In this document: in pieces, positions 34,084 to 52,692 of the stretch | How the letters are laid out: every line of letters begins with the position of its first letter | Numbering within the stretch: position 1 is the stretch's first letter | From: Paenibacillus sp. FSL K6-3182 | GTDB lineage: Bacteria > Bacillota > Bacilli > Paenibacillales > Paenibacillaceae | Length of the DNA stretch: 64,000 nt | Direction: 5' to 3' | Assembly: GCF_037976325.1 (NCBI RefSeq) | Contig: NZ_CP150265.1 | Location: forward strand, 6,151,001-6,215,000 | Position numbers and translations under genes: made by a program | The notes under the pieces: model-generated | The model's database searches: none | What the model was told of the DNA's origin: nothing | What the model saw: the letters and a program-made list of their open reading frames with translations, nothing else

Positions 34084-34947
34084 TCAACCGCCCATCAATT
34101 GCAGCAGCTTCGCCTCGAATTGCCCTTGAAGCTGCAGCATGAGATCGCTGAACGTTTGCTCCCACTTATCCGTAATTTCTGCCTCCACATTATCCTTTTC
34201 TGCTTGTGCAATAATTCCCTGCATTTTCGTACTGCATGTCGCTTCCACCTTCGAAAGCCCGTCCATCCATTTCTGGCTTAACTCCTGAAACGCGTAAGGG
34301 TCAGACATATCCAATTGCGCAACACTTGTTTCCGCTCCTGCCAATACATCATTCATATCCTGCGTACACTTAGCTTGAATCTGGACAATCTGCTGCTCAT
34401 ACTTTTCCGTTGACGTAATTGGAGCTTCCGTTTCCGGCACATTTGGCTGATCAGGCGAAGGCGTTGGCTTTGGTTTTGTCGTTGGCGTTGACGTTGAACC
34501 ATCATTCGGCTTCGTCTCCGTCCCTTTGTTCGGTTTAGTTGTACTTGATGGCTTCGTCGTCTGAACGGGCAAAGGATTTTCATTTTCCCCAGCCGGCTTA
34601 TCCGCCTCTTTCTCCGGCAGTACAGCTTCCCCTCCACTTCCAGCAGGCTTACCCGCCACCTGTTCCACTGGTTTTCCGGTTTTGTCAGTCGTTGGCGGTA
34701 CGCCATCTACAGTTGGACTCGTTTTCTCAGGCGCTGTCCCATACAGTTCTTCCTCACTCAGCTGTGCTTGCTCGTTTAATGCTGCGCCATTCGCATTCAC
34801 AATAAGTGATTGTTGTGAGGATTCATTCCAATAGAGACCGCCCCACACAAATAATAGAATAAGCGTTAACGAGCCTAAAATAATATTAATCGTATCCGGC
34901 TTCTGAAGCCGCGGACGCCGTTTCTTCCTTGCATGATGCTTGCTCAT
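34084..34947 (-). CDS. Single-pass membrane protein with long Pro/Thr-rich linker
   Basis: A 287-residue protein. A basic cytoplasmic N-terminus (SKHHARKKRRPRLQK) is followed by one membrane helix (INIILGSLTLILLFVWGGLYW, about 21-41). A long Thr/Pro/Lys/Ser-rich linker (about 65-175) resembles a cell-wall spacer. The C-terminal 110 residues form a helical domain with two Cys (KCTQDMN and TCSTKM) that could pair outside the cell. No enzyme motif is seen. It lies just beyond the terminator of the exopolysaccharide operon and reads in the same direction. Confidence 0.7.
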   Translation of the reverse strand: MSKHHARKKRRPRLQKPDTINIILGSLTLILLFVWGGLYWNESSQQSLIVNANGAALNEQAQLSEEELYGTAPEKTSPTVDGVPPTTDKTGKPVEQVAGKPAGSGGEAVLPEKEADKPAGENENPLPVQTTKPSSTTKPNKGTETKPNDGSTSTPTTKPKPTPSPDQPNVPETEAPITSTEKYEQQIVQIQAKCTQDMNDVLAGAETSVAQLDMSDPYAFQELSQKWMDGLSKVEATCSTKMQGIIAQAEKDNVEAEITDKWEQTFSDLMLQLQGQFEAKLLQLMGG

Positions 34948-34984: not shown

Positions 34985-35024
34985 AGCCAGTCTCCTTTCT
35001 CTTAGACGAGAAAGAAGACTGGCT
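34985..35024 (-). terminator. Terminator of the exopolysaccharide operon
   Basis: A long 17-bp imperfect stem (AGCCAGTCTCCTTTCTC against GAGAAAGAAGACTGGCT) starts nine bases past the stop of the triple-repeat gene. On the minus strand a TTCTTTCT stretch follows. No comparable terminator was seen between 35033 and 54121. Confidence 0.75.
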
Positions 35025-35032
35025 GCTTTTTG

Positions 35033-38000
35033 TTAAGATCGCATGATTTCCGTAATAATAGTAGTAAGCAATTTGTTGACCTTGCTTTTCGTTTCGTTTA
35101 TCGCCTTATTTTTCAGCGCGTTCGTTGTTTTTACTTTATTGATCTCATCAACAGCTACATTTCTAGCCTGTACAACATCCATGATCAGTTGTGCCTTCTG
35201 CTCATCGTTGGTCGCTGCTTTCAGCTTTTTCTTAACCTCGTTCAGCTTGCTATCCAATTCTTCAGCTATTCTCTTAAACTCTGCCTTAGGATCAATTTCC
35301 ACATCTTCATTAACGAGCGTCACCTCTTGCTGGAAAATCACTTTAGCAGAGCCGCCGTATGGATTCACTAAAGTCGCTTGAATAACAGCCGTACCATTAG
35401 CAACCTTTTTCGGAATCGTTACTTTCCCTCGCGAATCGACCGTGACATCTTTGCTTCCCGATACTTTCTTCCATTTCAAGAACGAGGATGGCAAAACAGT
35501 GCCAAGCAGCTTCAAACTGTATTCATGCTGCCTTCCGCTAGCCGTAATCTTCACCGCCGAAATAACTTCTGAACGGATATAAGCAACTGTTAATGCGTTA
35601 AGGGCCCGCTCATCATATTTCAGCTTTAGTTGGAATTTAAAAACAGATAGTCGTACATCAGCCGATTTAACACCTAAGTTGTTCAACGCCTCGCTTAATG
35701 CATAATCATCCTTTTTGGATAAAATTTCACCCATGGCTTCCATAATAACCGCATTTATTTTTTCCTTGTTGCCGAGCAGCTGAGCGATCTCCTGCGGCTT
35801 CATATCCGAGATAATGTTGCGAACGGTCCCTTCAACACCCGGACGGTCAGCTCCATCACCGAACAACAAAACGAGGAAATCATCCATGCTGAGGCTTGTT
35901 ACCCCGCCTGCTGCGGCAATCGTCTTCAGTGCAGCACGGAATTCTGGATTCGTTCGTATCGCTTCAAGTCCCTTCGCTTCTGGATCATATTGCAGGGAGC
36001 CTACAGACTGAATAATCTGGAACACAGTCTTCTTCAGCTCCGCTTGGTTAACCGATGCGGGAAGCTTAGGAGCAATTTTGACCCAGACTGGATCAATAAG
36101 TGATTGATCCTTGGCAAAATCAAGCTTGGCGATCTCATCGCGCAAATTGCGTACATCCTGCACATCCGAAGGATCTCCAGCAAGCAGTGCCGCGTGAAGC
36201 TTATTCATTCTCTCAAGGAATTCTTCAGCCGGGAAGTGTTCTCCCTCTCCATTTGTAGCTGTTAACGTAACCTCTTTCTCAAAAATAACTTTAGCTTGTC
36301 CACCATATGGGTTAATCAATGTCGCTTGAACAACCGCCGATCCGCTGGCAACGCCTCGCGGAAGCGTAACCGTACCACCAGAAGATACTTTCACATCTTT
36401 GCTTCCAGAAACTTTGCTCCACCGCAGCGCAAGCGGCGGAACATCCACGCCGAACACCTTCAAGCTGAATTTTTGCTCACGGCCATCTTCACTGACTTTA
36501 ACAGCCTCGACAGCTTCAGAGCGCATATGAGCGATAATTAGCGCTTGAATTGCTGGCTCATCCATCTTCAATCGAGCTTGGAAGTTAAGCATGGTTGCAG
36601 CAGACTCCTCCGCCGTTACACCCAACTGGCTTAAAACGGAGCTGAACTTATAATTGCCGGTTTCACTTAGCAGCTCCTCTGTCTTCTGGAGCAGCAGTGC
36701 GGAAATCGCTTGCTTATCTCCAATCAACTGCAGCAGCTGAGTCGGTGACAGGCTGGCAAGCTTCTGCCTTATAGCGCCATCTACACCTGGGTTAACGCCA
36801 CCATCGCCAAATAAAAACATGAGAATATCGTCTATTACAAAGCTAGTTTCACCGCCTCCGGCTGCTCCAAGCTCAGCTAACACAGCACGATATTCAGGAT
36901 TTTTGCGAATCTCCTCTAAACTTGCAGCCTGCGGGTCATATGGAATCAAGCTAATCTCCTTAACCATATTGAATAAAACAGCCTTCAGCTTTGCTTGGTC
37001 TGCTTCTGCGGGCAGCTTAGCTGCAATCTTCTTCCAAATCGGATCAATTAAATTGTGATCCTTAGCGAAGTCCAGCCCAGCAAGCTCATCACGCAAATTG
37101 CGAACGGCTCCAACATCTGCTGGATCTCCTGCTGCTAGAGCAGAATACAGCTTATTCATCCGCGCAAGGAATGACTCCACAGGAAACTCGGTCTCATGCG
37201 AAATTGCAGCGTTTAAGGTAACCTCTTGCTCAAATATGACTTTCGCCGAGCCACCGTATGGATTGATCAGCTTAGCCTGAATAACAGCTGTACCGGTTTT
37301 CGCAGCATCCGGTATAGTAACGACACCCGTAGGCAATACCTTTACATTAGAATCACCGGATACCTTTGACCACTGCAGAACTTGTGGGAAAAGATATACG
37401 CCGAATACATTTAAGCTATACGAATGTACACGACCAGTGTAGTCTATTTTCACGCTTGACTTCACGCTTGAACGAATATACGCCACAGTCATCGCGCTGA
37501 TCGCAGGCTCGTCCTTCTGAAGCTTCACCTGGAAGTTTTGTACGGTCGCTCTTACATCCTTCGGCGTCACGCCTAAATTTTTCAAAATAGAGCTGAACTT
37601 GTACTCATTCGTCTCACCCATCAGCTTCTCCATCGCCTGAAGAAGAACCGTTACAATGCCCTGCTTATTGCCAAGCAGCAAAATCAGCTCCTCCGGAGAC
37701 TTCTCCCCGATCAGGCTGCCAATCGTTCCTTCAACGCCTTTACGGCTGCTGCCATCGCCAAACATAAAGACGAGAAAGTCTTCCAATCTAATGTTCTCGT
37801 CACCGCCTGCAGCTGCAATCGTCTTCAAGGTTGCTCGAAATTCTGGATTCGTGCGAATAGCCTCCAAATCAGAGGCTTCAGGGTCGTAACGGAAGGAGCC
37901 TACAGCCTTGATCAACCGGAACAGGCTCGCTTTAAGTTCCGCTTTGTCGGCAGACTCAGGAAGCTTCTCGCTAATTTTTGTCCAAATCGGATCGATCAGC

Positions 38001-38275
38001 TGCTGGTTTGTTGCTTCATCCAGACCGGCAATTTCATCTCGCAAATTTTTAACCTCTTGCATGTCCGTCTTGTCCCCAGCTGCTAGTGCAGCATATAGAG
38101 CCTGCATACGCTCCAAAAACACGCTTGAAGGCAGCGCAGCTTCTGCAGCACTCGCCGCTTGAACAAATCCCAGCTTCTCGGTCAGCCCTTTCTGGCTGAG
38201 CGGTAATCCGCCTAGCGATGCTGTAAGCATGGAGATCGCCAGCGCGGATAAGGTTACTTTTTTTCGAAACGTCAT
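35033..38275 (-). CDS. Secreted triple-repeat protein at the end of the exopolysaccharide operon
   Basis: A 1,080-residue protein with a signal peptide (RKKVTLSALAISMLTASLGG). Three repeats of about 315 residues follow (about 48-355, 362-675, 681-980). Each has a helical half (FLERMxxLxAALxAGD, LRDEIAxLD, LIDPxWxKI, AIRTNPEFRA, FGDG) and a beta half with an Ig-like strand pattern (RWSKVSGSKDVKV, INPYGGxAKVIFEQEVTL). A C-terminal coiled coil (about 990-1075; EFKRIAEELDSKLNEVKKKLK) ends the chain. No catalytic motif, SLH or sortase signal is seen. The start at 38275 fits AGGTG six bases upstream; an ATG at 38284 is an alternative. It lies close behind ugd and before the terminator, so it should be made with the polymer. 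It may bind it; that is inference. Confidence 0.85.
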   Translation of the reverse strand: MTFRKKVTLSALAISMLTASLGGLPLSQKGLTEKLGFVQAASAAEAALPSSVFLERMQALYAALAAGDKTDMQEVKNLRDEIAGLDEATNQQLIDPIWTKISEKLPESADKAELKASLFRLIKAVGSFRYDPEASDLEAIRTNPEFRATLKTIAAAGGDENIRLEDFLVFMFGDGSSRKGVEGTIGSLIGEKSPEELILLLGNKQGIVTVLLQAMEKLMGETNEYKFSSILKNLGVTPKDVRATVQNFQVKLQKDEPAISAMTVAYIRSSVKSSVKIDYTGRVHSYSLNVFGVYLFPQVLQWSKVSGDSNVKVLPTGVVTIPDAAKTGTAVIQAKLINPYGGSAKVIFEQEVTLNAAISHETEFPVESFLARMNKLYSALAAGDPADVGAVRNLRDELAGLDFAKDHNLIDPIWKKIAAKLPAEADQAKLKAVLFNMVKEISLIPYDPQAASLEEIRKNPEYRAVLAELGAAGGGETSFVIDDILMFLFGDGGVNPGVDGAIRQKLASLSPTQLLQLIGDKQAISALLLQKTEELLSETGNYKFSSVLSQLGVTAEESAATMLNFQARLKMDEPAIQALIIAHMRSEAVEAVKVSEDGREQKFSLKVFGVDVPPLALRWSKVSGSKDVKVSSGGTVTLPRGVASGSAVVQATLINPYGGQAKVIFEKEVTLTATNGEGEHFPAEEFLERMNKLHAALLAGDPSDVQDVRNLRDEIAKLDFAKDQSLIDPVWVKIAPKLPASVNQAELKKTVFQIIQSVGSLQYDPEAKGLEAIRTNPEFRAALKTIAAAGGVTSLSMDDFLVLLFGDGADRPGVEGTVRNIISDMKPQEIAQLLGNKEKINAVIMEAMGEILSKKDDYALSEALNNLGVKSADVRLSVFKFQLKLKYDERALNALTVAYIRSEVISAVKITASGRQHEYSLKLLGTVLPSSFLKWKKVSGSKDVTVDSRGKVTIPKKVANGTAVIQATLVNPYGGSAKVIFQQEVTLVNEDVEIDPKAEFKRIAEELDSKLNEVKKKLKAATNDEQKAQLIMDVVQARNVAVDEINKVKTTNALKNKAINETKSKVNKLLTTIITEIMRS

Positions 38276-38303
38276 TTCATTCACCTCTGGTCATTAGTTT
38301 GGT

Positions 38304-39644
38304 TTAAAATTGCAATACAGGTATTTGCTGCTTTACGCCTTGATTAAGGCTAGGGCGGCCTACGGAGTAATAAACAAATTCAGTACCAACCAAATGCTCC
38401 TCTTCGAAAACATTGCGGCCGTCAATCAGAATCGGACTTTTTAATACTTGTTGAAGCAGTCCAAGGTCAACATGTGAGAACTCCTCCCACTCTGTCAGCA
38501 AGCAAAGCGCATCCGCATCTTTTGCCGCTTCCATCGCGTCCTCACACCATTCAACACCGCTAATTTCATATAAAGTACGGAAGTTGTCAGTCGCAATAGG
38601 GTCATAAGCCTTGACCTTAACGCCGTTGTCCACCAAATGTTGAATAATTTCCGATGCTGGCGAATCGCGCACATCATCGGTATTCGGCTTGAATGCAAGC
38701 CCCCATACTGCAATCGTCTTACCTGAAAGCTCACCTTGAAATATCGTCTCCAGCTTGCGAATGACGTTAAAGCGTTGATCCTGATTGACCTCTACTACCG
38801 AGCGCAGCAGCTTGAACTCATAATCAACATGTCCGGCAATTTGAATTAAGGCGCTTGTATCTTTAGGAAAACAAGAGCCCCCGTAGCCGATTCCCGCTTT
38901 TAGGAACGATGGGCCAATTCGCTTGTCATAACCCATTCCTTCAGCTACCTTCGTTACATCTGCGCCTACCTTCTCGCAAATATTAGCGATCTCATTGATA
39001 AATGATATTTTGGTAGCTAGAAATGCATTGGACGCATATTTAATCATTTCAGCGCTGCGAATATCTGTAATAACGATTTGTTCCGTTAAAGGAATATGAA
39101 GCAGCTTCATAATTTCTGCTGCGCTTTGTGAGCTGGCTCCAATAATAATGCGATCGGGATGCAGCGTATCTTGTATCGCCGAGCCCTCGCGCAAAAACTC
39201 TGGCAGCGAGATACTGTCAAACAACTCACTCGTGTGGGAGGCGATGACGGTTGCTAGACGTTCATTCGTTCCAACGGGTACAGTGCTTTTTACCGCTATG
39301 ATTTTATAACCGTTCATCGCCTTTGCAATCTCTATGGCTGCTTGGTCAATGTAAGATAGATTAGCCTCGCCATTTGGCAGCGGAGGTGTTCCTACCGCCA
39401 AAATAATAATGTCCGATTGCTGTACCGCGCTTCGCAAATCAGTCGTGAAGGTGAGCATTCCTGCTGCTCGGTTCGACGCTGCTAGCTCCTTGAGGCCTGG
39501 CTCATAGATCGGAATGCCGCCAGCGTTTAGTGTCTCAATTTTGCGCGGGTCCTTGTCTACGCAAATGACGCGATTGCCAAGCTCCGCATAACAAATGCCC
39601 GACACGAGCCCCACGTAGCCAGTTCCAATAACCGTGATGTTCAT
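38304..39644 (-). CDS. ugd: UDP-glucose 6-dehydrogenase
   Basis: A 446-residue enzyme oxidising UDP-glucose to UDP-glucuronate with two NAD. It has the N-terminal NAD motif VIGTGYVGLVSG, VGTPPLPNGEA, the helical dimer core (KYASNAFLATKISFINEIA), the catalytic Cys in GYGGSCFPKD and the C-terminal UDP-binding domain (VWGLAFKPNTDDVRDSPA). It supplies glucuronate for an acidic polymer. The start at 39644 follows AAGGAG; the 14 upstream residues are excluded because they overlap the ManC C-terminus. It sits between manC and the triple-repeat gene. Confidence 0.94.
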   Translation of the reverse strand: MNITVIGTGYVGLVSGICYAELGNRVICVDKDPRKIETLNAGGIPIYEPGLKELAASNRAAGMLTFTTDLRSAVQQSDIIILAVGTPPLPNGEANLSYIDQAAIEIAKAMNGYKIIAVKSTVPVGTNERLATVIASHTSELFDSISLPEFLREGSAIQDTLHPDRIIIGASSQSAAEIMKLLHIPLTEQIVITDIRSAEMIKYASNAFLATKISFINEIANICEKVGADVTKVAEGMGYDKRIGPSFLKAGIGYGGSCFPKDTSALIQIAGHVDYEFKLLRSVVEVNQDQRFNVIRKLETIFQGELSGKTIAVWGLAFKPNTDDVRDSPASEIIQHLVDNGVKVKAYDPIATDNFRTLYEISGVEWCEDAMEAAKDADALCLLTEWEEFSHVDLGLLQQVLKSPILIDGRNVFEEEHLVGTEFVYYSVGRPSLNQGVKQQIPVLQF

Positions 39645-39673
39645 GCTATTCGCTCCTTCATTGAATGATTTAT

Positions 39674-41041
39674 TTATACGGTGCATAGTTGCATAATCTC
39701 ATTCCAATCGAAGGCAAGCCGGACGATGTCCTCTTCAATAAGCTCCGTCCCTGTCTGAATTTCGATAATGTCCATTTCTGTTTCTGCGCGCAGGCTATGA
39801 AGGCTTTCTTTCGATATCGTTAGCACATCGCCCGATTTCACTTCAAAGCTTCGACCATTCAGCACCATGACGCCATGTCCGGCAACAATCGTCCATACCT
39901 CGTCTCTCAGCAGATGATATTGATAGCTTAAGTTCCGTTCTGGCGCAACGCATATTCGTTTAGTCAGCACTTCCTTGCCGTCGGGATATTTCAAATAATC
40001 AAGCACACGATAGCGGCCCCAACGACGCTCCTCATACATCGGACGCTGGTCGGAATGCTTCATGACCTCCTTGATCATAGGACTAGCCGCTTTGTCCGAT
40101 ACCAAAATTCCGTCCGGACTCGCCGCTACAATGACATTCGATACATTCAGCAGAGTAATCGGGATGTCGAGCTCATTAATGACATGCGTGTTCGTTGAAT
40201 CTCCCGAAATAATCCCTTTTCCAATAAGCGGCGTTTCAATTTCCTCGGTCAAGGTGTTCCAAGTTCCAAGGTCTTTCCAATCGCCCTCATATGGCAATGC
40301 CACGATATGATTGGACTTTTCTACGATTTCATAGTCAAAGCTGTTTTTCGGCATCTTCCCGTATTGCTTCAGCATCTCGTCGTATTGAATCGGCAGTTCA
40401 TTAGCAATCAGAATGTTAATGAGAAAATCAAGCTTGAATGCAAAAACCCCGCAGTTCCAAAGTGCAGCCTGCTCAATCATGGCTGCCGCTTCTTCTTCGC
40501 GGGGTTTTTCTCTAAAGCTGTTTACATTGACATAATTGTTCGCCTCAGCTGCAAGCTCAGGAACGATATAACCGTATTTTTCCGAAGGATACGTTGGCTT
40601 CACGCCCATAAGCGCTAAATCTGCTCCCGATTCATTCAAAACCAGCTCAAGCTCCTTCGTCTTATGGAAAAACGATTGCTCCACGTAGGGATCAACTGGC
40701 ATGACAACGACTGTTTCATTCAAGCTTACACCTTGCACCGAATATAAATAGGTTGCTGCGAGCGCGATAGCGGGGAAGGTGTCCCTTCTTTCCGGCTCGA
40801 CGATCACTTCAATCTCGCTTCCGAGCTGACTATGGATCATATCTACCTGCGGCTTGCTTGTTGCGATATAAGCATGCTCGCGTAAACCCGCCTTCGTGAT
40901 TTGTCCCCATACGCGCTGAACCATCGATTCACGCTCGCCGCTCTCGTCTTTTAGCACCTTCAAAAACTGCTTGGATCTCGATTCGTTCGACAACGGCCAC
41001 AGCCGCTTGCCCGAGCCTCCGGATAGAAGAACAATCTTCAT
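39674..41041 (-). CDS. manC: Mannose-1-phosphate guanylyltransferase / mannose-6-phosphate isomerase
   Basis: A 455-residue bifunctional enzyme. The N-terminal nucleotidyltransferase has LLSGGSGKRLWPLS (5-18) and FREKPR; the C-terminal cupin isomerase has QYHLLRDEVWTIVAGHG. It converts mannose 6-phosphate towards GDP-mannose. No GDP-mannose dehydratase or fucose synthase lies in the window, so mannose rather than fucose is the likely product sugar. AGGAGG precedes the ATG. Confidence 0.92.
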   Translation of the reverse strand: MKIVLLSGGSGKRLWPLSNESRSKQFLKVLKDESGERESMVQRVWGQITKAGLREHAYIATSKPQVDMIHSQLGSEIEVIVEPERRDTFPAIALAATYLYSVQGVSLNETVVVMPVDPYVEQSFFHKTKELELVLNESGADLALMGVKPTYPSEKYGYIVPELAAEANNYVNVNSFREKPREEEAAAMIEQAALWNCGVFAFKLDFLINILIANELPIQYDEMLKQYGKMPKNSFDYEIVEKSNHIVALPYEGDWKDLGTWNTLTEEIETPLIGKGIISGDSTNTHVINELDIPITLLNVSNVIVAASPDGILVSDKAASPMIKEVMKHSDQRPMYEERRWGRYRVLDYLKYPDGKEVLTKRICVAPERNLSYQYHLLRDEVWTIVAGHGVMVLNGRSFEVKSGDVLTISKESLHSLRAETEMDIIEIQTGTELIEEDIVRLAFDWNEIMQLCTV

Positions 41042-41114: not shown

Positions 41115-42068
41115 TTATGCTTCGTTCTTCACCACCAGCTGCGCTGACTTGATCCCGCTGGTCCATGTATTGTAGTAGTTCGAGTTTTTGCCATATGAGT
41201 TATCGAGCAGCGTATTAGGCTTGTCCATCAAGCAGGATAATATATGCCCGTGCAGCCTAGAGGTTTGCACGATGCGATAGCCGCTGAAGCGCTTGACCGC
41301 TTTGTCTACGAGATAGTCGGAGTACTTGCCCCATATCGCCTGCATCGGCAGAGGGACACCGCTTTTCGTCATCATTTGCCCGATCATCTTAATTGATTTT
41401 TTCTCGACGCGATTGTATAGGGAAGCCCAGTCCAAATAATCGCCTCTCCCTGCCAGTTCAAAGCTCGCCTGCTCGCTTGTCTTCTCGATGTCGGTACGGA
41501 AGAAGCAGAGCAGCTCCTTGCCGGGGCTGCTTTTGGGCAAAATCGGCCACAGCTGATGTGCCATATCCGGCGATAAGTATACGCAGCATTTATCAAATTT
41601 TTGAGCTGCTATCCCATAGGACAGCGTATCCCGCACAAAAAGATGAACATCCTTATGCGCGTTAAAAATACGCGCCGTGCGATCATACTCCGCTTCCTTC
41701 TCGAAGAAAATCGTCTGCGGCAGCAGTACAATTCGGTGATTAGGATAATCCTTTACGATTTTCTCCCGCAGCTTCTGATGAACCGGGTACAAATCACCAA
41801 AGTTGCCTCCGCCTTGAAGGACGATAATTTGATCATTCGGAATGGTCAGCTTGTCTGGAAAATCAAGAACGCTATAACGCGCAGCCACGCGGATATGATT
41901 GTCTTTAAAAAACGCCTCTGCACCCTTCATAATGAGCAAATCGCCGCCATTGTTGTAAACGGGATAATCGATATAATAAATGCTTGAACCCGGTGGTATC
42001 ACCTTCGTAATTCGGAGAAGCATCTTTTTGAGCCCCTCCATCGGATGTACCTGTGCTTCAACTTGCAT
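41115..42068 (-). CDS. Polysaccharide pyruvyl transferase family protein
   Basis: A 317-residue protein of the CsaB/EpsO/WcaK family. Blocks are YNNGGDLLIMKGAEAFF (about 39-55), VLQGGGNFGDLYP, LLPQTIFF, FVRDTLSYG and SRLHGHILSCL with the conserved HGH. It adds a pyruvate ketal to a sugar of the repeating unit from phosphoenolpyruvate, which gives the polymer acidity. Its ribosome binding site (AAAGGAG) lies within the end of the flippase gene, which suggests coupling. Confidence 0.88.
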   Translation of the reverse strand: MQVEAQVHPMEGLKKMLLRITKVIPPGSSIYYIDYPVYNNGGDLLIMKGAEAFFKDNHIRVAARYSVLDFPDKLTIPNDQIIVLQGGGNFGDLYPVHQKLREKIVKDYPNHRIVLLPQTIFFEKEAEYDRTARIFNAHKDVHLFVRDTLSYGIAAQKFDKCCVYLSPDMAHQLWPILPKSSPGKELLCFFRTDIEKTSEQASFELAGRGDYLDWASLYNRVEKKSIKMIGQMMTKSGVPLPMQAIWGKYSDYLVDKAVKRFSGYRIVQTSRLHGHILSCLMDKPNTLLDNSYGKNSNYYNTWTSGIKSAQLVVKNEA

Positions 42069-42069
42069 A

Positions 42070-43422
42070 TCAACGCGCTCCTTTACGTTGTTTTTTGTCT
42101 TTCAAACGCTCAATTAAAAAACGGAAATCATTTTTATCAAACAACATCCCTGATAGCTTTACTTGGAAAATAATTCTCATCGAGGCCAACGTCACTACTA
42201 AACGAATGACTGCGCCAATTAATAAAGCAAGTGCAATTCCATTTAGCCCATACAGGGGTGTAAACAGAAAAAACAATCCAATGGTTGCCGCTAAGGCTAT
42301 AAGCTGACGGACAAGTACCAACCCAGGTCGGCCCATTGCATTAAACGAGGATGCCAAAATCCATGAGCCGCCACCGAGAATGCATTCGAACGACAGCAGA
42401 TAGAAGGCTCCGCTTGCTTCAAGGAACGGCGCTCCGAACAGGATGCCCATCAGATAACGCCCGATGAACATGCTCGGGATGACTACAATCGTCATCAGCA
42501 GCATCGATAACCGAAACGCCCTGCCTACCGTTGCGATAATGGCTGATTTCTCCATGCCGGTAACCTTCGGGAACACAACATTCGTAATCGCCATCTGTAC
42601 GACATTGAATACGCGGGACAGCGCATAAACGACCGTGTACAGCCCTAGCTCTCTAGCAGTCAGCATCGATAGAATGACAAGCTTGTCAAACTGTGTGTAC
42701 AGCGTACCGAGAAGCTCCACTCCGAACACTTTGCTGCCATAGCCGAATAACGCTTTCGCTGCCAGCCGATTGCCGAGTCCCTTCAACCAGTTCATCTGAA
42801 GCGTTTCTCTTAAACTATAGAGTGACCATGAAACGACAAGCACGCTGGTTACGAGAAATACAAGCGAAGCATTATGCAGGCTTAAATCACCTATTGCCCA
42901 TAACCCCAAGAGCCCAACCAGATTGCACAGCGGAACCAATAAACGCACACCGTTATAAATGTTAAACTTGCCAGTACTTTGCGCCAGCGCAGATATTAAA
43001 TTGATAGCGAGCAGAATCGGCAGCATGAGTACCGTATACCATCTCGTAATTTGAATGATGTCAGCAGGATAGTTGCCAAGCCATACCGGCAGCCATACCC
43101 ACGCGACCACGCCAATAATGATGCTGACTGGAATTTGAAATAGAAAACCAGCTCTAACAAAATCGCTGCCGCTGCCTTTGTTTTGCTTCATATTATAAAT
43201 AAGAGAGGTCGGCAGGCCGAAGCCAACAAGACCCGCGAGAAGCGTTGGCCAAAACAAAATGGCTGAAAATTCGCCCTTGCCAACAACGCCGAACATACGC
43301 GCCGTCACAATGGAAGTCAGCGTGCTGATAACCATGACTAGCAGGTTCGTTGCACTCGTGCGCATAATCGTTTGAACGAGGCCGTTGCCTCTCCACGCTT
43401 TAGAAATAGCAAGCTGTGCCAT
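42070..43422 (-). CDS. Wzx-type lipid-linked oligosaccharide flippase
   Basis: A 450-residue integral membrane protein with about 12 segments, of the MOP/polysaccharide-export superfamily. Visible are SATNLLVMVISTLTSIVTARMFGVVGKGEFS and the TM7-loop region FGVELLGTLYTQFDKLVILSMLTARELGLYTVVYAL. It would flip the undecaprenyl-linked repeating unit across the membrane. The C-terminus is basic and cytoplasmic. It lies between a GT2 gene and the pyruvyltransferase gene. Confidence 0.9.
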   Translation of the reverse strand: MAQLAISKAWRGNGLVQTIMRTSATNLLVMVISTLTSIVTARMFGVVGKGEFSAILFWPTLLAGLVGFGLPTSLIYNMKQNKGSGSDFVRAGFLFQIPVSIIIGVVAWVWLPVWLGNYPADIIQITRWYTVLMLPILLAINLISALAQSTGKFNIYNGVRLLVPLCNLVGLLGLWAIGDLSLHNASLVFLVTSVLVVSWSLYSLRETLQMNWLKGLGNRLAAKALFGYGSKVFGVELLGTLYTQFDKLVILSMLTARELGLYTVVYALSRVFNVVQMAITNVVFPKVTGMEKSAIIATVGRAFRLSMLLMTIVVIPSMFIGRYLMGILFGAPFLEASGAFYLLSFECILGGGSWILASSFNAMGRPGLVLVRQLIALAATIGLFFLFTPLYGLNGIALALLIGAVIRLVVTLASMRIIFQVKLSGMLFDKNDFRFLIERLKDKKQRKGAR

Positions 43423-43431
43423 AGCTTTCCG

Positions 43432-44331
43432 TCAACCCCTACCGTTATAGCGCAGAATGCCGACTAATGACCCGTTGCGATAACATATTTTCACGACTTG
43501 ACTGATGAATTTCTTAAAATGAAAAATCGATAGCAAGGATGTTCCAATCGCCTGAATCATTCGGATCACATGTTTTACGATAGCAAAGAGGCTTCGATCC
43601 TGCCGCTTAACCGCATCGCTCACGCCTTGCCAGAAAATCCGCTTCAAAAACCATTTTTTTGTCGTTCTCTCCTTGGCAATTTTGTGTTGAACAGATCCAT
43701 ATGGCGTATAATATACTTTGTAGCTTTCACGAATCCGTGCGATGAGCTCGCTTTCCTCACTTGAGAGCAGGTTTGTGCCTACCCGTCCAAGATCCTCTCG
43801 GAACGGCTTATACTTATGAAAGACGCTTGACCGAAATGCGACGTTTGCGCCATATGGAATGGACGGTGCAGGCATTTCCTTCACATCGTTTGCATAATCA
43901 AGAATCGTGAATACCGATCGATGCTCCTCTGGAATCCAGTCCGGCTCAGCCGCTTCCCAGATCGGATCAATTTTGCCGCCTACGCAGCCTATCGCCGGAT
44001 CGCTTTCGAACACGTTCACAATATGCTGCACCCAGTCCCGCGAAGCCAACGCATCATCATCCAAAAATAAAATGAATTCACCGTTTGCTTCCTTAATCGC
44101 TCGATTGCGGGCTACCGACAAACCAAGCTTGTTCTCAAAAATATACCGAATGCTTGGACCATACCGATACGCAAGCTTGCCTACCACTTCAACCGTATTG
44201 TCTGTTGATCTGTTGTCGATTACAACAATCTCGATTTGTTCCCGCTCAAAGCTTTGGGCAATTACGCTCTCTATTGCCTCTCCCGTATCCTTCGCCCGGT
44301 TATGGGTGCAGATGGCCACCGTTACCTTCAT
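43432..44331 (-). CDS. Glycosyltransferase family 2
   Basis: A 299-residue inverting GT-A enzyme: VAICTHNRAKDTGEAIESVI at the N-terminus, the nucleotide-sugar block VIDNRSTDNT, and the metal-binding DDDA (LFLDDDALASRDW). A C-terminal amphipathic or helical part associates it with the membrane. It would add one sugar to the growing repeating unit; the sugar cannot be read from the sequence. Confidence 0.92.
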   Translation of the reverse strand: MKVTVAICTHNRAKDTGEAIESVIAQSFEREQIEIVVIDNRSTDNTVEVVGKLAYRYGPSIRYIFENKLGLSVARNRAIKEANGEFILFLDDDALASRDWVQHIVNVFESDPAIGCVGGKIDPIWEAAEPDWIPEEHRSVFTILDYANDVKEMPAPSIPYGANVAFRSSVFHKYKPFREDLGRVGTNLLSSEESELIARIRESYKVYYTPYGSVQHKIAKERTTKKWFLKRIFWQGVSDAVKRQDRSLFAIVKHVIRMIQAIGTSLLSIFHFKKFISQVVKICYRNGSLVGILRYNGRG

Positions 44332-44334
44332 CCT

Positions 44335-45366
44335 TTATCCCCATCCTTGGTAAACATTTTTTATCCTCTGTGCGATCGCGCTCCAGTCGAGTTCCTTAAG
44401 CACTTCTTCGTACTTAGGCGTCTTATGCTCTCTCTTCACATTTAACGCGGCTTTCATTGCATTTTCGAGACCGTTATAATCGCTTGGGTTGTAGCTCACG
44501 ACCATATCCTCCATAAAATACTCATCGATAAAATCATTGTCCGGCATGACGATCAGCTTCCTGAACGAGAGGCCAAGTATCGCAGAGCCGGAGGTCGTAA
44601 TTTCCTTGTACGGCATCACCATCACATCAACGGCGCTAATCAAGTCAGCGACTGCTTCATTTGGAATGAAGCGCAGGTCCAAAATAATGTTTTCCTTATC
44701 CTCTACCCGCTTCAAATAGGATTCCATTTGCTTGTCCGCTTTGCCCGCAATGATCAGATAGGTATTTCGAGTTTTGAATGCATTAAACGCTTCAATTAAA
44801 TCCTCGACACCCTTATACGCTTTGATTGCCCCTAAAAACAAATAAACATCAGCTTCTTCGCTGATGCCATAAGACGCTCTGAAGTTGAAGCCTGCAGGCT
44901 TATACACGCCAAGATAATGACCATGCTTTATGACAAAAAGCTTGCTAGCCGGCACTCCGAATTCCATCATAACCTTACGTTTGATCGACTCCGAAGCAAC
45001 CAGCAGCTTGCTGCAAAATTTGCAAATGATCGTTCGCATGTAACGCTCCAGCCGCTTATACTTCACCTGATGCGGATACAGGTTATGAATCGTCCAAACC
45101 AGCTGCACTTTTCGCAGCTTCAAATAAATCATCGTCATTATAAATATGATCGATTTCACCATGAACAACAGCAGATTATCATTCTGATAGGCATGATGCA
45201 TCCAGTGAATATGGACAATGTCGCCAGCTTTCGCTTGCCCGACCTGAAGTGCTAGCTTGCCATGCTGCAAATCCTTCACTTCCATGCCTGCACTGCTGAG
45301 TGAATCGGTCAATAAATCATTGTAAAAGTTCAATTCGCTTGATTTTGGCCACATCCATACTTTCAT
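44335..45366 (-). CDS. Glycosyltransferase (GT-B, GT4-like)
   Basis: A 343-residue GT-B enzyme. The N-terminal lobe has DIVHIHWMHHAY and a basic, hydrophobic membrane-facing segment (SIIFIMTMIYLKLRKVQLVW). The C-terminal lobe has LFLGAIKAYKGVEDLIEAF and DVMVMPYKEITTSGSAILGLSF, the nucleotide-sugar site, with Glu in place of the common EGFG run. Such enzymes retain anomeric configuration. Some resemble GumK-type glucuronosyltransferases; the donor here is unknown. Confidence 0.85.
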   Translation of the reverse strand: MKVWMWPKSSELNFYNDLLTDSLSSAGMEVKDLQHGKLALQVGQAKAGDIVHIHWMHHAYQNDNLLLFMVKSIIFIMTMIYLKLRKVQLVWTIHNLYPHQVKYKRLERYMRTIICKFCSKLLVASESIKRKVMMEFGVPASKLFVIKHGHYLGVYKPAGFNFRASYGISEEADVYLFLGAIKAYKGVEDLIEAFNAFKTRNTYLIIAGKADKQMESYLKRVEDKENIILDLRFIPNEAVADLISAVDVMVMPYKEITTSGSAILGLSFRKLIVMPDNDFIDEYFMEDMVVSYNPSDYNGLENAMKAALNVKREHKTPKYEEVLKELDWSAIAQRIKNVYQGWG

Positions 45367-45381
45367 CGCCGTACGCTCCCT

Positions 45382-45954
45382 TTAGTTATATCTGCGAACC
45401 CATTCCTTCGTAATCTGGAGCTCGCGAATAATCTTTGCGGGTGCACCGCCTGCCAGCACATTATTCGGAATATCCCGCGTTACGATGCTGCCTGCAGCAA
45501 TGACTGAACCGCTGCCAATCGTTACGCCAGGCAAAATAACAGCTCCGCGTCCAATCCACACATTGTCCGAGATGACGATGTCCTTGCTGCCAGCTCGGTC
45601 TTCCATATCTACGGGGTGGAAGTTCGTATCGATAATGTTCACCATCGGACCGATAATCGTGTTGCTGCCAATTCGGATCGACTTCGTGCAGCCAATGTCG
45701 AGGCCATAATTAAAAAACACATTATCCCCTACCCAAAGCTCCGCCTGCTTCTCTACGGTAACTGAAGAAGGCAGCGGCTTCGCATGGAAAGAAACGTTTT
45801 TCCCAACGATGAACCGCCCTTTGTTTCGTAAGGTCAGCTTTCCAGAAATACGGCCAAGCCTGCCAGCTGAACTCGCCTTAATTGGCAGTATGGCAGCCCC
45901 CTTTAATACAGCCAGGAGCTTGCCGAAGCTTAATCGATTATATACGGTGCTCAT
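45382..45954 (-). CDS. Left-handed beta-helix O-acyltransferase
   Basis: A 190-residue hexapeptide-repeat enzyme (ADNVFFNYGLDIGCTKSIRIGSNTIIG-like coils, VWIGRGAVILPGVTIGSGSVIAAGSIV, then GGAPAKIIRE). The catalytic His is in IDTNFHPVD. It transfers acetyl or another acyl group to a sugar hydroxyl and probably decorates the polymer. Start and upstream stop overlap as ATGA, so translation is coupled to the GT4 gene before it. Confidence 0.9.
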   Translation of the reverse strand: MSTVYNRLSFGKLLAVLKGAAILPIKASSAGRLGRISGKLTLRNKGRFIVGKNVSFHAKPLPSSVTVEKQAELWVGDNVFFNYGLDIGCTKSIRIGSNTIIGPMVNIIDTNFHPVDMEDRAGSKDIVISDNVWIGRGAVILPGVTIGSGSVIAAGSIVTRDIPNNVLAGGAPAKIIRELQITKEWVRRYN

Positions 45955-47084
45955 CTGACCATCCCGCCTGCCGCTTCCGATTTTAAGTTTGGCGCAAGCA
46001 GCTCACGATATGTCGACTCCACCTTCTTCGCAATGGAGCTCATGTTAAAGTCGCTCATTACGCTTGCATAACCTTGGCTTGATAGTTCCTCATAATCAAC
46101 TTCCCCATCGTAAACGCTTCTCATCGTCTGATACAGCTCTTCTACATCGCCGTCCTTCACGATGAAGCCGCCTCTCGTATGATGGATAATTTCTGGCGCT
46201 CCGCCCGAATCTGCAACGATAACTGGCGTTTCAACGAGCATCGATTCAATAATAACTCTGCCAAACGGCTCGTTAAGGGAGAAGTTTATCGTTAAATCAC
46301 ATTCCTTCATCACATCTAGCGGTTTTTTGCTGTAGCCATAGAAGACCACATGATGCTCCAAGCCGTAGGACAGCACCTTTTGGATCATGTCATTGTAATA
46401 GTCATCCGACCCGTCAACGGATGCATCGCCCACGATGAGCAGCTTCCAATTGTTCCGATTGCTGTCGCTCAGTTTCTTCACTGCCTCGATCATGAGATGG
46501 TATCTTTTCCATTCCACAATCCGGCCGAACGTGCCGATGATGAGTGTATCATCCTCCATAAAGGCTCTGCTCTTTCTCGTCAAAGCAAGCTCTGGATCAA
46601 CACCGTTATAAATGATAGTCTTGTTGCTGCCCTGAATCGAATTGGCTACAAAATGCGAAATGCATATTACCTGATCAAAAAATTTCGGCAGCACTTGGTT
46701 GAACATACGCAAATGGGTATAGTCGCGATGATGCCAGATCAGCTTTGACTTCGTCATAAACTTTAGCGGAGCTGTGTACCAAGGTGCGCGCCAGCCGTTG
46801 GCATGAACGATGTCGATGCGATTTTTACGAACAAAGGACTGAATCTTAAGCACCGTTTCGATATAACCTAAGCCTAGTTTTTTCTTAATGCTGCCCAGCT
46901 GCAGCGGAAAATGAACATAATCCGATCTAATTTCATTTAGATATGTCGCATCGCGAGGACTTAACAAAAAAATCCGATATTTTGACGTGTCCAAATAATT
47001 GATGAGATGGATCAGGCTTTGCTCAGCGCCGCCCTTCTTATCCGCGTGGGTAACAAACAACACATTCGTTTTACTTCGACTCAT
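45951..47084 (-). CDS. Glycosyltransferase family 4
   Basis: A 377-residue GT-B enzyme. N-terminal: HADKKGGAEQSLIHLINYL with the donor loop GGAEQ. C-terminal: IGTFGRIVEWKRYHLMIEAVKKL and ETPVIVADSGGAPEII, with EPFGRVIIESM as the E-x7-E motif. It adds a sugar to the lipid-linked intermediate. It overlaps the acyltransferase gene and follows the next GT gene by one base. Confidence 0.92.
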   Translation of the reverse strand: MSRSKTNVLFVTHADKKGGAEQSLIHLINYLDTSKYRIFLLSPRDATYLNEIRSDYVHFPLQLGSIKKKLGLGYIETVLKIQSFVRKNRIDIVHANGWRAPWYTAPLKFMTKSKLIWHHRDYTHLRMFNQVLPKFFDQVICISHFVANSIQGSNKTIIYNGVDPELALTRKSRAFMEDDTLIIGTFGRIVEWKRYHLMIEAVKKLSDSNRNNWKLLIVGDASVDGSDDYYNDMIQKVLSYGLEHHVVFYGYSKKPLDVMKECDLTINFSLNEPFGRVIIESMLVETPVIVADSGGAPEIIHHTRGGFIVKDGDVEELYQTMRSVYDGEVDYEELSSQGYASVMSDFNMSSIAKKVESTYRELLAPNLKSEAAGGMVR

Positions 47085-47085
47085 A

Positions 47086-48255
47086 TTAGAGCACCTGCTT
47101 TACTGGATAACTGACGTTCAAGGATTGCATATATGTCTTCAATACTTCTTTGTGATTGTAATGGGTGCGCAAGAAGCTTTGCGATGACTCCAGCAATGAT
47201 TTTGCCCTTTGAGGATCATCGAATAGCTGCTTGATTTTCCCATAAAATTGCTCCGGCCGATCAGCGACCATGATATGCTCGTTATCTACAAGTCCTGTTC
47301 CCTCGTAGCCGATGGAGGTGGAAATAACCGGCAAGCCGTTCTGAATCGCTTCAATCGTCTTCAGCTTGACGCCTGCTCCGTTCTGCATCGGGTTAACGAA
47401 TAAATAGCCGCTTCGGTATATTTCATCCAAACTCTTTGGCGTATCATGTACAATGACATTCTTTAGGTTGTAGCTCTCGAGCCAGCTGAGGCTCTGTTTT
47501 CTGCTGTTCCCTGCTATGATGAACTTATAGTCCGGCTCCTTCAGCATCAGCGGGTGGATATGCTCCAGATACCACTGAATTGCTTCTCGGTTGTTCGGCA
47601 TAAATAGGGAACCAATGAACACGACATGCTTGCTGCGAAAATCACTAGCTTCGAAGTTGACCTTCGTAACCGGAGGCGGAAGGAACAAGCTTTTTGCAGC
47701 AGGATGCTGTTTGCGGAAGCTTTCAAATTCCTTGCTCGATATAAACAAGTATTTATCCACCTTCTCCAGCATTTTTTTTTGCAAAATCGTGAATTTGCGG
47801 CTCTCCATGTGGTAATACATTTTGTGAACGACGTTTTTAGTGCTATTGGCTAGCGCCTTGAAATAGACCGCTTCATCGTTATGCACTCGTAGGATAACCG
47901 TATCATGTTTGATTTTTGGATTTTGCAAAACCGGATACACATAGTCGCCTTCAAGAAGTACATAATCATAATCTCCTGCCAGCTCTACATTACTTAGTTC
48001 ACTACGCGACTGCACCTGCATCGGAATAACATGCAGCAGATCAGCCAGCTTGCTTCTTCGATCACATAACGTAATCTCTTCCACGTAATTATATACTGTG
48101 TCCATTTCTTCCTTAGATGGCATCTGCTTGCCGCAAACGAGCAAGTGGATTTTCCAGCCAAGCTCAGCGAGCACCTTGATTCTTCCCCATGTGTCTACCC
48201 TTCCGCCATGATCGGCGGGATAGGGAAAATCACTGCACACCACAAGCATCTTCAT
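47086..48255 (-). CDS. Glycosyltransferase family 4
   Basis: A 389-residue GT-B enzyme starting VVCSDFPYPADHGGRVDTWGRIKVLAELGW. The C-terminal lobe has VVFIGSLFMPNNREAIQWYLEHI and PMQNGAGVKLKTIEAIQNGLPVISTSIGYEG, the donor-site Glu run. It resembles the family of PEP-CTERM/colanic acid-type transferases. The start overlaps the stop of the Wzy gene by four bases. Confidence 0.9.
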   Translation of the reverse strand: MKMLVVCSDFPYPADHGGRVDTWGRIKVLAELGWKIHLLVCGKQMPSKEEMDTVYNYVEEITLCDRRSKLADLLHVIPMQVQSRSELSNVELAGDYDYVLLEGDYVYPVLQNPKIKHDTVILRVHNDEAVYFKALANSTKNVVHKMYYHMESRKFTILQKKMLEKVDKYLFISSKEFESFRKQHPAAKSLFLPPPVTKVNFEASDFRSKHVVFIGSLFMPNNREAIQWYLEHIHPLMLKEPDYKFIIAGNSRKQSLSWLESYNLKNVIVHDTPKSLDEIYRSGYLFVNPMQNGAGVKLKTIEAIQNGLPVISTSIGYEGTGLVDNEHIMVADRPEQFYGKIKQLFDDPQRAKSLLESSQSFLRTHYNHKEVLKTYMQSLNVSYPVKQVL

Positions 48256-49637
48256 TTGGATACCCCCGACCTTTTTGGTTGATCTATATCGTTTTTGCCT
48301 AAAAAAAGGCTAATAAAAGCAAATAGCAGCCATATCTCATATTTAATCTCCAAGGAAACAAGAAGCATTGAAAATAAGATAAAAACTAAAGCAAGAAATA
48401 ATATAGAGCTGGATTTCACTTTGACGATCAGGTTTTTGGCAAGCAGATAAAAGAACACAACTGCGAATAGCCCGCCAAACATAATCCATTGGAAAAATCC
48501 CGATTTGACGCCTAAGTTTTTGTCCGAGCCCGAATATTGCAACAGCTCCCCCGCATTAATTTGGCTGATGCCAAATGTATTGTAATAGAAATGGGACATC
48601 ATGCTGATCGAATCATTCACATACTTATCGAAATACATGAGATATGCTCCTGTGCCAACCCCGAGCGGATTGTGAAACACCGTAATCAGCGCGATGATGA
48701 TCGTTCCCATACGCGTGTAGGAAGATGTGTAGTTTTCGATGTCATTACTGAACGAGCTGACCAGCCCCGCAGAAAAATTAGTGATGAACATATACATGGC
48801 CAGAACGACTGAGATGAGCAAAACAAAATTTTTCTTTTTTCGAAAATCCAAAAACTTAATCATCGTCACGACTAACGTGAACAAGCTGATAATCATAAAC
48901 CCTTTGGAGCCTGTAATAAATAAGTAAAACAGAAAAAAACCTGAAGCATAAACGATCGTTAGCGTCTTGCCGAAACTGTTCAAATACTTTGTCAGATATA
49001 CCAAAATGGATGCATATACAACCACGATGGAGCCCGTCGTGCTGCTCTCCGAGGTCAGCATCCGAACCCTCCAATAAGGGCTGCTCCCTGCATGCAAATA
49101 CGTGAAGGCGTTCGGCATACTCATAAGCTCCAAGATCATAATGACCGTCAGCAGCGTAACGATTGCTAGGAAGCAGCCATACAGCGTCTTAAAGCTTGTA
49201 ATTTTGGAAAAAATGAGCTGCATATGCCTGATATAAAGCAGGATGAGCACAAAATAAATAAGTACCTTTATCGCTTTGCCAAGCAGACTCTCTGATCCGA
49301 AGCTGTAGCTGCCTTGAATGAATTGAATTAGCAAATAGGCAATGCTGATAAAGCACAAATATAAAATAAATCCGAATATATACTTCTGCAGCATGCTGCC
49401 ATGCATCACCCGCTTATGCTTCGCCAGCAGCCCAATTTCGCATAACACAAACAGCGGAACCAGCAAAATAATGGGTGACCTGCCAATCTCGCCGATTATG
49501 TTGACTAACGGGAAATCCTGGTAGACGGTCAGCACCAGCAAGAAGCATAAATAAATCGCCAAAAAGATTTGCTGCTTCTCTTCTTTTTTGGCTAATTTAG
49601 CTTTAATCACTAGATTGCTTTGCAAGATTTGGCTCAT
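48252..49637 (-). CDS. Wzy-type polysaccharide polymerase / O-antigen ligase-like protein
   Basis: A 461-residue protein with about 12 hydrophobic segments and long loops, with no soluble domain. The last third holds FHNPLGVGTGAYLMYF, a G-rich block typical of Wzy/O-antigen-ligase-like proteins. Position among Wzx, priming and GT genes makes it the polymerase that joins repeating units outside the membrane. Sequence conservation in this group is low, so the call rests on topology and place. Confidence 0.85.
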   Translation of the reverse strand: MSQILQSNLVIKAKLAKKEEKQQIFLAIYLCFLLVLTVYQDFPLVNIIGEIGRSPIILLVPLFVLCEIGLLAKHKRVMHGSMLQKYIFGFILYLCFISIAYLLIQFIQGSYSFGSESLLGKAIKVLIYFVLILLYIRHMQLIFSKITSFKTLYGCFLAIVTLLTVIMILELMSMPNAFTYLHAGSSPYWRVRMLTSESSTTGSIVVVYASILVYLTKYLNSFGKTLTIVYASGFFLFYLFITGSKGFMIISLFTLVVTMIKFLDFRKKKNFVLLISVVLAMYMFITNFSAGLVSSFSNDIENYTSSYTRMGTIIIALITVFHNPLGVGTGAYLMYFDKYVNDSISMMSHFYYNTFGISQINAGELLQYSGSDKNLGVKSGFFQWIMFGGLFAVVFFYLLAKNLIVKVKSSSILFLALVFILFSMLLVSLEIKYEIWLLFAFISLFLGKNDIDQPKRSGVSK

Positions 49638-49658
49638 CTTCTCTCCATCCCCGTAAAT

Positions 49659-50774
49659 CTAGACGTATTTTTTGACGGCGGAGGATAACGGTTTGCTTGA
49701 TTTCTGCAAGGCTTCCTCGTAAAGCCGCTCGATTTGGTTGTTCATTTTATCCGAATGGAATTTCTCTTGGAAAATGTCCCATCCCGCTAAGCCAAGCGCT
49801 CTCAGCTTCGGCTTGTCCAGCTCATGAATGATGTCTGCCAGCTCCTGCTTATTATCGAAGTCGAATACATAACCGTTAACGCCATCGCTAATAATTTCCG
49901 GCAGCGCACCTCGATTGCTCGCAATAACCGGTTTCTTATTCCGCAGCGCTTCAATGGCGACGATGCCAAAGCCTTCCCAGCGAGATGGAATAATGACCGC
50001 ATCACAGGATTGCATATAACGATCGATCTGAGAATTGTCCACCCAGCCGATCTTAATTGTGTTCTCAGGAAACTTGTATTCAACTTCCTTCAGCACAGTA
50101 TCGCCAACCAAATATAGGCGAACGTTTGTAAACTGATGCTTGTTGAACACCTCAAGCAGCAGATCAAACCCCTTCTGCCGATCGAAGCGTCCTACATAAA
50201 GTAGATGAATCATGTCAGGATCAGTCTCGAAAGGCGGCGTGCTTACTTCCGACGTATCCGAAACGCCGTTATAAACGACTCCCGACTTGGCTGCTGGCAG
50301 TCCATAATGCATGGCCTTCTCATATTCATGCCTCGAAATATTGATAATGAAATCAGTCCGAAGTGCGAGCGTCTTCTCAACTAAGGCGAATATCCGCTGC
50401 TTCCACGGCTTTATATCCATCAGAAAAGCCCAGCCATGCGCATTATAGATGACGATCGGGCGCTTGCTCTTGAAAAAAAACAACGTCCGCAGGAAAACAC
50501 CTGCGAACGTTCCGTGTACATGTACAATATCAGGCTTGAAGTCCTTTACCTTACGATGAATAGCTTTCATGGCTTTCACAAAATAAGCCGGCTTCCTCTT
50601 GTAAGGGTACAAGCACAATCGATCTTGGCTAATTTGAAGCGACTCAGGGCTCGAATTCTGCTCAGAAGCCATAAGAAAAATATCATGTCTGCTCGCTTGG
50701 TAGCTCAGCACCTCGTTCAAGTGCGTCTCGATACCGCCCTTCGTAAACTCCGAAATATGCAGGATTCTTGCCAT
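49659..50774 (-). CDS. Glycosyltransferase family 4
   Basis: A 371-residue GT-B enzyme: ILHISEFTKGGIETHLNEVLSYQ, DIVHVHGTFAGVFLR, then LYVGRFDRQKGFDLLLEVF and IPSRWEGFGIVAIEALRNKKPVIASNRGALPEII with the E-x7-E motif EGFGIVAIE. Translation begins at 50774, nine bases after GAGGAG. The open frame runs 69 codons further upstream, but that part is encoded by 39-bp hairpin repeats and is not a protein domain. Confidence 0.92.
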   Translation of the reverse strand: MARILHISEFTKGGIETHLNEVLSYQASRHDIFLMASEQNSSPESLQISQDRLCLYPYKRKPAYFVKAMKAIHRKVKDFKPDIVHVHGTFAGVFLRTLFFFKSKRPIVIYNAHGWAFLMDIKPWKQRIFALVEKTLALRTDFIINISRHEYEKAMHYGLPAAKSGVVYNGVSDTSEVSTPPFETDPDMIHLLYVGRFDRQKGFDLLLEVFNKHQFTNVRLYLVGDTVLKEVEYKFPENTIKIGWVDNSQIDRYMQSCDAVIIPSRWEGFGIVAIEALRNKKPVIASNRGALPEIISDGVNGYVFDFDNKQELADIIHELDKPKLRALGLAGWDIFQEKFHSDKMNNQIERLYEEALQKSSKPLSSAVKKYV

Positions 50775-50791
50775 TTTTATCAACTCCTCAA

Positions 50792-50900: not shown

Positions 50901-50908
50901 TTCACACT

Positions 50909-52503: not shown

Positions 52504-52542
52504 TTGATTTCACCCTATCCTATTATTTTTTTATTGGTTGTT

Positions 52543-52654: not shown

Positions 52655-52692
52655 TATCTATTTCTTGCTTCTATGAGCTGGAGCAAAGACGA

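Follow-up and report, generated by a model that had tools for sequence, protein, structure and literature searches.

The 64,000-nucleotide stretch of Paenibacillus sp. FSL K6-3182 analysed here (contig NZ_CP150265.1, positions 6,151,001 to 6,215,000; hereafter the window, in whose own numbering positions are given) carries a gene for a protein of three repeats that lies directly behind ugd in an exopolysaccharide (EPS) operon. We put at roughly 0.5 the probability that this is an accessory surface or matrix protein of an undescribed family, secreted and made together with the EPS, that holds or orders the polymer. It looks like a multiplied member, lacking S-layer homology (SLH) domains, of a mostly SLH-bearing family tied to polysaccharide loci. 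The gene and the parts of its product are as follows.

35033..38275, minus strand: gene of the triple-repeat protein, putatively secreted (ATG start, 1080 residues)
38138..38275, minus strand: putative signal peptide region (residues 1-46) with a conserved GLPLSxKGLxEKLG stretch, the cleavage place being read from the sequence
37472..38119, minus strand: helical half of repeat 1 (residues 53-268), from the helical-half profile and the full-length model
37208..37471, minus strand: immunoglobulin (Ig)-like half of repeat 1 (residues 269-356), from the Ig-half profile and the full-length model
36521..37171, minus strand: helical half of repeat 2 (residues 369-585), from the profile and the full-length model
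36257..36520, minus strand: Ig-like half of repeat 2 (residues 586-673), from the profile and the full-length model
35573..36220, minus strand: helical half of repeat 3 (residues 686-901), from the profile and the repeat-3 model
35309..35572, minus strand: Ig-like half of repeat 3 (residues 902-989), from the profile and the repeat-3 model; a Pfam Nis1 match is strongest here (see below)
35036..35293, minus strand: C-terminal three-helix tail (residues 995-1080), from the profile and the full-length model

An earlier, sequence-only reading had proposed three repeats of about 315 residues, each with a helical and an Ig-like half, and this architecture is borne out; the two halves span about 216 and 88 residues, respectively. 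Whole-length alignment of the three gives 56% (repeat 1) and 51% (repeat 2) identity to repeat 3, far above chance, whereas plain BLASTP of the protein against itself returned the full self-match only. Profiles of the two halves, built from the window repeats themselves and related repeats, each match the protein three times in tandem (E 2e-91 to 4e-104 for the helical half, 4e-38 to 2e-40 for the Ig half). In the AlphaFold2 model of repeat 3 (mean predicted local distance difference test score, pLDDT, 91.8; predicted template modelling score, pTM, 0.85), 13 helices (residues 4-224) are followed by a six-strand sandwich (residues 225-309), so the second half is predicted to adopt the Ig-like beta-sandwich fold. 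The full-length model (mean pLDDT 82.4, pTM 0.41) does not predict the relative placement of the parts. Its residues 996-1079 form a three-helix bundle, and thus the coiled-coil end proposed earlier survives as a helical tail and not as a plain coiled coil. There is no Cys in residues 47-1080, and Pfam and profile scans found no SLH domain in the protein.

The link to EPS comes from gene neighborhood. The survey covered 122 loci and 122 proteins that contain the helical half, drawn from 106 genomes of the window's taxonomic family (of 394 genomes of that family, 161 hold a relative of the triple-repeat protein, and the 106 are among them); these loci come mostly from the best-scoring part of the match list, plus this genome, and are not a random sample. 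A common gene caller was used, and slots were set by BLAST to genes of the window and of L003 (L numbers are our locus labels), within three genes and on the same strand; the cpsB/wzz slot requires cpsB upstream or wzz/cpsD downstream, not both. One locus (L159) yielded no domain protein and another (L079) yielded two, and L157 (100 bases, a placeholder) was left out. Overall, 107 of the 122 proteins stand in EPS clusters, as the window gene does. The place behind ManC/Ugd that the window protein occupies is shared by 52 of the 122, in line with the proposal that a protein secreted by its look is co-encoded with EPS genes; 17 of these have SLH domains and 35 do not. The other 55 occupy the cpsB/wzz slot, and all 55 carry SLH domains, 48 of them showing the helical half plus SLH only. 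It had been suggested that the protein belongs to no recognised family, which holds for the helical half in Pfam; however, the protein is a member of a wide family in which SLH domains are present in 72/122 surveyed relatives. The 35 SLH-less proteins of the ManC/Ugd slot comprise 19 with three units and the tail, 12 with two units and the tail, two with one unit and the tail, and two with one unit and no tail (probably cut short).

Beyond this survey, a protein search returned 88 homologues, from Paenibacillus, Cohnella, and near kin where named, which by length and coverage have three repeats (~1080 residues), two (~764 residues), or one behind fn3 domains (~640-1066 residues). The helical-half profile matched 101 of 296 genomes of the order, the window's own family included, and 10 of 398 genomes of the phylum, three of them from that family. 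When the SLH-bearing protein of L090 (residues 45-345) was used as query, 6 near relatives only were found. At 20 loci from other families of the order, wzz-cpsD lies directly downstream in 13, 11 of which also have cpsB upstream and 11 of which have SLH domains; the remaining seven have cpsB alone (one), ManC or ManC/Ugd upstream (two), GalU plus a sugar transferase downstream (one), or no marker (three). This genome itself holds two further relatives. One (L005, 7388-10465) is a triple-repeat paralogue, 43% identical, with neither tail, SLH domains, nor labelled EPS neighbors; the other is an SLH protein that shares the signal peptide and the helical half and, in a second EPS locus, is flanked by a CpsB-like phosphatase on one side and Wzz/CpsD on the other.

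By eye, the N-terminus of the triple-repeat protein resembles a signal peptide (K/R, then a hydrophobic stretch and an Ala-rich end), and the protein is therefore presumed to be secreted. A stretch of the type G-[LIVFM]-P-[LF]-S-x-K-G-L occurs there in 75 of the 107 EPS-slot proteins (50/55 in the cpsB/wzz slot, and 20/35 SLH-less and 5/17 SLH-bearing proteins in the ManC/Ugd slot). It is found in none of the 15 relatives outside EPS slots and in none of 1445 other open reading frames (ORFs) of the same loci (at least 150 residues, first 80 residues searched). The search used a looser written pattern, at most 60 residues ahead of the helical half, that was tuned by eye on the same sequences; an earlier pattern gave 38/55, 26/35, 6/17, and 0/15. 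Because of this tuning, and because most background ORFs are probably not secreted, the enrichment is a hint only. A 50-residue N-terminal piece searched within this genome (E ≤ 1) matched just the triple-repeat protein and its SLH relative. Signal peptides are seldom so conserved, which hints that export or sorting takes a special route, and the GLPLSxKGLAEKLG-like extended signal peptide might serve in sorting.

A tree of 92 helical halves, midpoint-rooted and with several weak deep forks, shows clustered labels (nine changes, against a mean of 45.6 after shuffling, with 0 of 200 shuffles as low). One SLH-less group of 31 rows, with support 97/93, holds most first repeats; SLH-bearing proteins of the ManC/Ugd slot fall on several branches outside it, and two of the 35 SLH-less proteins of that slot (L075 and L077, probably cut short) are placed among SLH-bearing rows. 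Given that SLH domains are spread over both slots and over distant families, they were presumably lost in the window's branch rather than gained elsewhere. The tail is probably an old part, because eight of the 52 ManC/Ugd-slot proteins carry it ahead of their SLH domains (H-B-C-S-S-S). The idea that it arose as a new anchor was rejected on the same grounds.

Taken together, the basic unit of the family appears to be the helical domain, to which an Ig-like domain is usually added in proteins that lie outside the cpsB/wzz slot. Most surveyed relatives are encoded in an EPS locus and combine the unit with SLH domains, which serve as wall anchors in known proteins; the unit's likely job would be to keep polymer that has just been exported at the cell surface, or to order it there. 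The window's branch lacks SLH and mostly has two to three copies of the unit, so its protein would link polymer in the slime in a multivalent way, perhaps docking to the cell via the three-helix tail or via a neighboring membrane protein, X34 (described below). For the triple-repeat protein, polymer binding is a step suggested by gene order, and docking to the cell is likewise a conjecture. A more specific version is doubtful: that the helical-Ig module is a new kind of carbohydrate-holding module, fixed to the wall by SLH domains, with which EPS loci of this Gram-positive order (Paenibacillales) encode a dedicated polysaccharide tether, and that the window's branch dropped the anchor and tripled the module to give a free slime cross-linker, with a new extended signal peptide targeting the EPS export site.

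The operon into which the gene is built runs on the same strand, in the order Wzz, CpsD-like kinase, nucleotidyltransferase, priming sugar transferase, glycosyltransferases, Wzy-like protein, acetyltransferase, flippase-like protein, pyruvyl transferase, ManC-like, and Ugd-like, and then the triple-repeat protein.

43432..54121, minus strand: remaining EPS operon (glycosyltransferases, acetyltransferase, Wzy-like, sugar transferase, nucleotidyltransferase, CpsD-like kinase, Wzz)
42070..43422, minus strand: flippase (presumably Wzx), named from its place and sequence character; used as the cluster marker
41115..42068, minus strand: polysaccharide pyruvyl transferase, within the EPS operon
39674..41041, minus strand: ManC-like mannose-1-phosphate guanylyltransferase, scoring below the NCBIfam cut-off
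38304..39686, minus strand: nucleotide sugar dehydrogenase, Ugd/TuaD-like, adjoining the triple-repeat gene directly upstream

NCBIfam yields nothing for the flippase-like protein at E ≤ 0.001. The triple-repeat gene starts 28 bp past the ugd stop (38304), which agrees with the earlier statement that the gene lies close behind ugd. An agaggtga stretch resembling a ribosome-binding site precedes the ATG at 38275; a GTG three codons earlier is an alternative start (ORF 35033..38284, minus strand, 1083 residues).

Several observations weigh against a polymer-holding role. The flippase of the window cluster is matched (E ≤ 1e-60) in 153 of 394 genomes, 66 of them in one genus (g5), and only three genomes of that genus hold any relative of the triple-repeat protein. 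We opened 20 sister clusters (L198-L217, flippase 51-72% identical), which were chosen because their genome has no relative, or a weak or otherwise placed one, so that the absence of the triple-repeat protein from all 20 is not a rate. The earlier expectation that homologues keep to EPS genes does not extend to 15 of the 122 relatives, which lie outside EPS loci, form separate subfamilies, and in no case have SLH domains (they are fn3 fusions and the tail-less triple-repeat paralogue, one of which is in this genome). In other families of the order, 3 of the 20 loci are not EPS loci, and two in the cpsB/wzz slot (L169 and L170) have two units and no SLH, which may have been lost independently in that lineage. 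Two of five loci taken from distant families of the phylum were read: L192 encodes the unit plus SLH with no EPS genes nearby, and in L191 two glycosyltransferase-like ORFs were seen by eye on the same contig. In an EPS gene list for P. mucilaginosus, the YwqE phosphatase immediately precedes the chain-length protein and no gene separates the two (PMC9956331). Thus, the domain is neither needed for EPS loci nor confined to them. Finally, charge is not kept across the family (means of −4.6 to −8.9 for the helical half and −0.5 to +1.3 for the Ig half), which lends no support to a simple ionic attachment of an acidic polymer. Electrostatic binding by basic Ig halves, considered because those of the window protein have a net charge of +2 to +7, was rejected on the family means.

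The sister clusters also show what can stand in this place. Ugd is labelled in 18 of the 20 (L214 and L217 have no labelled ManC or Ugd). Behind it, nine clusters have a protein of 388-390 residues, which in the single case scanned is an uncharacterised nucleotidyltransferase, followed by a kinase-like protein; six have a protein of 978-1072 residues (hydrolase-like, judged from the one scanned), and three have a protein of 313-319 residues (LytR-CpsA-Psr in the one scanned), which in two of the three is followed by a BNR/sortilin-like protein (one scanned). The slot behind Ugd thus looks like a place for clade-specific accessories, some with the look of secreted proteins. Because clusters with a 51-72% identical flippase occur without it, the triple-repeat protein is an accessory, and the candidate role of obligate part of the EPS machinery was rejected. 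For comparison, the pep EPS clusters of P. polymyxa have galU, manC, and ugdH1 with the co-transcribed hydrolases PepM and PepN; the text mentions neither S-layer nor SLH, although those clusters may still include a relative (PMC7911366). Their pepN-pepO interval, as described there, is about 2 kb with a reverse gene, unlike the gene order seen here, and carries no claim on a cpsB/SLH relative.

Against the preferred role of holding or ordering polymer, one can set a structural surface scaffold, similar to an S-layer, that is made alongside the slime without binding it, the EPS link being regulatory only. We consider this unlikely. The family keeps two different EPS slots across families of the order, and the absence of SLH in the window's branch would be hard for a wall scaffold to tolerate. 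Known surface proteins offer partial parallels. SlhA-type SLH surface proteins of P. alvei share SLH with the 72 relatives and not with the window protein. Deletion of SlhA is described as halving EPS and impairing biofilm formation (PMC3776848). However, the slhA locus lies between the secondary cell wall polymer locus and the S-layer gene, and a kinship of SlhA with the helical domain would be conjectural. SLH proteins of P. amylolyticus are likewise reported in the biofilm matrix (PMC11985002); whether kin or not, they offer a parallel of the same sort. The S-layer proteins SbsC, SbsB, and Sap contain Ig-like domains, and the Ig halves and tail of the window protein are similar to them by VIA-align, whose similarity rows cover mainly these two parts. 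SbsC also has a helical N-terminal bundle, whereas the window protein has no meaningful sequence match in the PDB (the lowest E is 1.2 with the full protein and 0.011, to flagellar hook protein 2, with the helical profile; both taken as chance).

A second alternative, an export or processing helper at the Wzx/Wzy exit, involves the sequence downstream of the gene, which the sequence-only reading took to end at the operon terminator.

34985..35024, minus strand: terminator-like hairpin of 17 pairs with a T-rich tail, past the stop codon ending at 35033
34084..34947, minus strand: X34, with an N-terminal membrane helix, a long Pro/Thr/Lys-rich stalk, and a C-terminal part that looks helical and holds two Cys; the membrane helix and the helical character of the end were judged from the sequence

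The hairpin is there as described. However, the operon may not end at it, because the X34 gene follows 85 bp beyond the triple-repeat gene and is found within three genes downstream in 49 of the 52 loci of the ManC/Ugd slot; none of the remaining 70 has it there. Hairpins with T runs occur in the gap before X34 in 20 of 36 loci with gaps of 250 bp or less (two of the 36 gaps are too short to fold; 13 loci with larger gaps and three without X34 were left out). With only 37 bp between the hairpin and the start codon, a promoter of its own was rejected for X34 and read-through is likelier; X34 may be expressed past the hairpin at a lower level. No Pfam family matches X34 at E ≤ 0.001, and some sources label it TonB-like, probably owing to the Pro-rich stalk. 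Beside it in many ManC/Ugd-slot loci, as at 33648-34028 of the window (convergent), is a small helix-turn-helix regulator, 71-94% identical where labelled in L040-L094.

As a replacement for lost SLH domains, X34 was rejected as a general rule; it also stands behind 14 of the 17 SLH-bearing ManC/Ugd-slot proteins. We find it improbable that the triple-repeat protein works with X34 as an export helper, although the constancy of X34 in this slot, the two Cys in the last 130 residues of 48 of 52 X34-like sequences, and the hydrolase-like or LytR-CpsA-Psr proteins that fill the place behind ugd in sister clusters would all suit such a role. All 20 opened clusters manage without the triple-repeat protein, and X34 is missing in three of the 52 loci and lies within three genes behind none of the 55 cpsB/wzz-slot forms (weak matches to its profile lie four genes behind in L122 and L124).

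An enzyme acting on the polysaccharide is very unlikely. Some polysaccharide lyases do have the outline of a helical half plus a beta sandwich, and in sister cluster L209 the scanned protein that occupies the slot matches CHB_HEX_C_1 and Glyco_hydro_42 (27.5 bits against a cut-off of 21). However, the earlier proposal to compare one repeat by fold turned up no enzyme: Foldseek against the PDB (repeat and full protein) and a viral set (repeat) gave nothing at E ≤ 0.001, the helical half not being searched alone. Among 35 helical halves there is no Pfam match at E ≤ 0.001 (best E 0.0059), and only a single residue is invariant. NCBIfam has no family for the triple-repeat protein at E ≤ 0.001, and no description of the family was found in the open-licence PubMed Central literature on Paenibacillus EPS clusters with S-layer homology proteins. 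Judged from that literature, Pfam, NCBIfam, and the PDB, neither the helical half nor the EPS-linked family has been described before, and the Ig-like, SLH, and three-helix tail parts are of known kinds. Bacterial Ig-like domains such as Big_2 and Rib match the second half of each repeat in fold; Pfam Big_2 itself is not among the families listed for the protein at E ≤ 10.

Kinship with Nis1 (PF19271; presumably named after a fungal effector), which would make this a protein acting on plants, is highly improbable, since the match, above the cut-off in the repeat-3 Ig half (35309-35572; 35.8 bits, cut-off 27) and listed for 10 of the 88 homologues including the window protein (39.5 bits in P0002), has its best stretch at positions 51-107 of 114 and so covers half of the profile in a different architecture, falls below the cut-off in P0074 (16.1 bits), is absent from L005, and probably reflects generic similarity to the common Ig sandwich that the models predict.

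Elsewhere in the window, 26077-32964 encodes a protein of 2295 residues with a GDSL esterase, a rhamnogalacturonan lyase of family 11, Big_2, and three SLH domains, which is probably a wall-anchored pectin degrader adjoining the EPS operon.

To our knowledge, how Gram-positive exopolysaccharides of the Wzx/Wzy type stay on the cell or leave as slime is poorly understood. A family with two fixed places in EPS loci, most members having SLH domains and one branch lacking them, would offer a direct, testable handle on polymer retention and release. Even if the protein leaves the polymer untouched, this is an unnamed domain family present in 101 of 296 genomes of the order.

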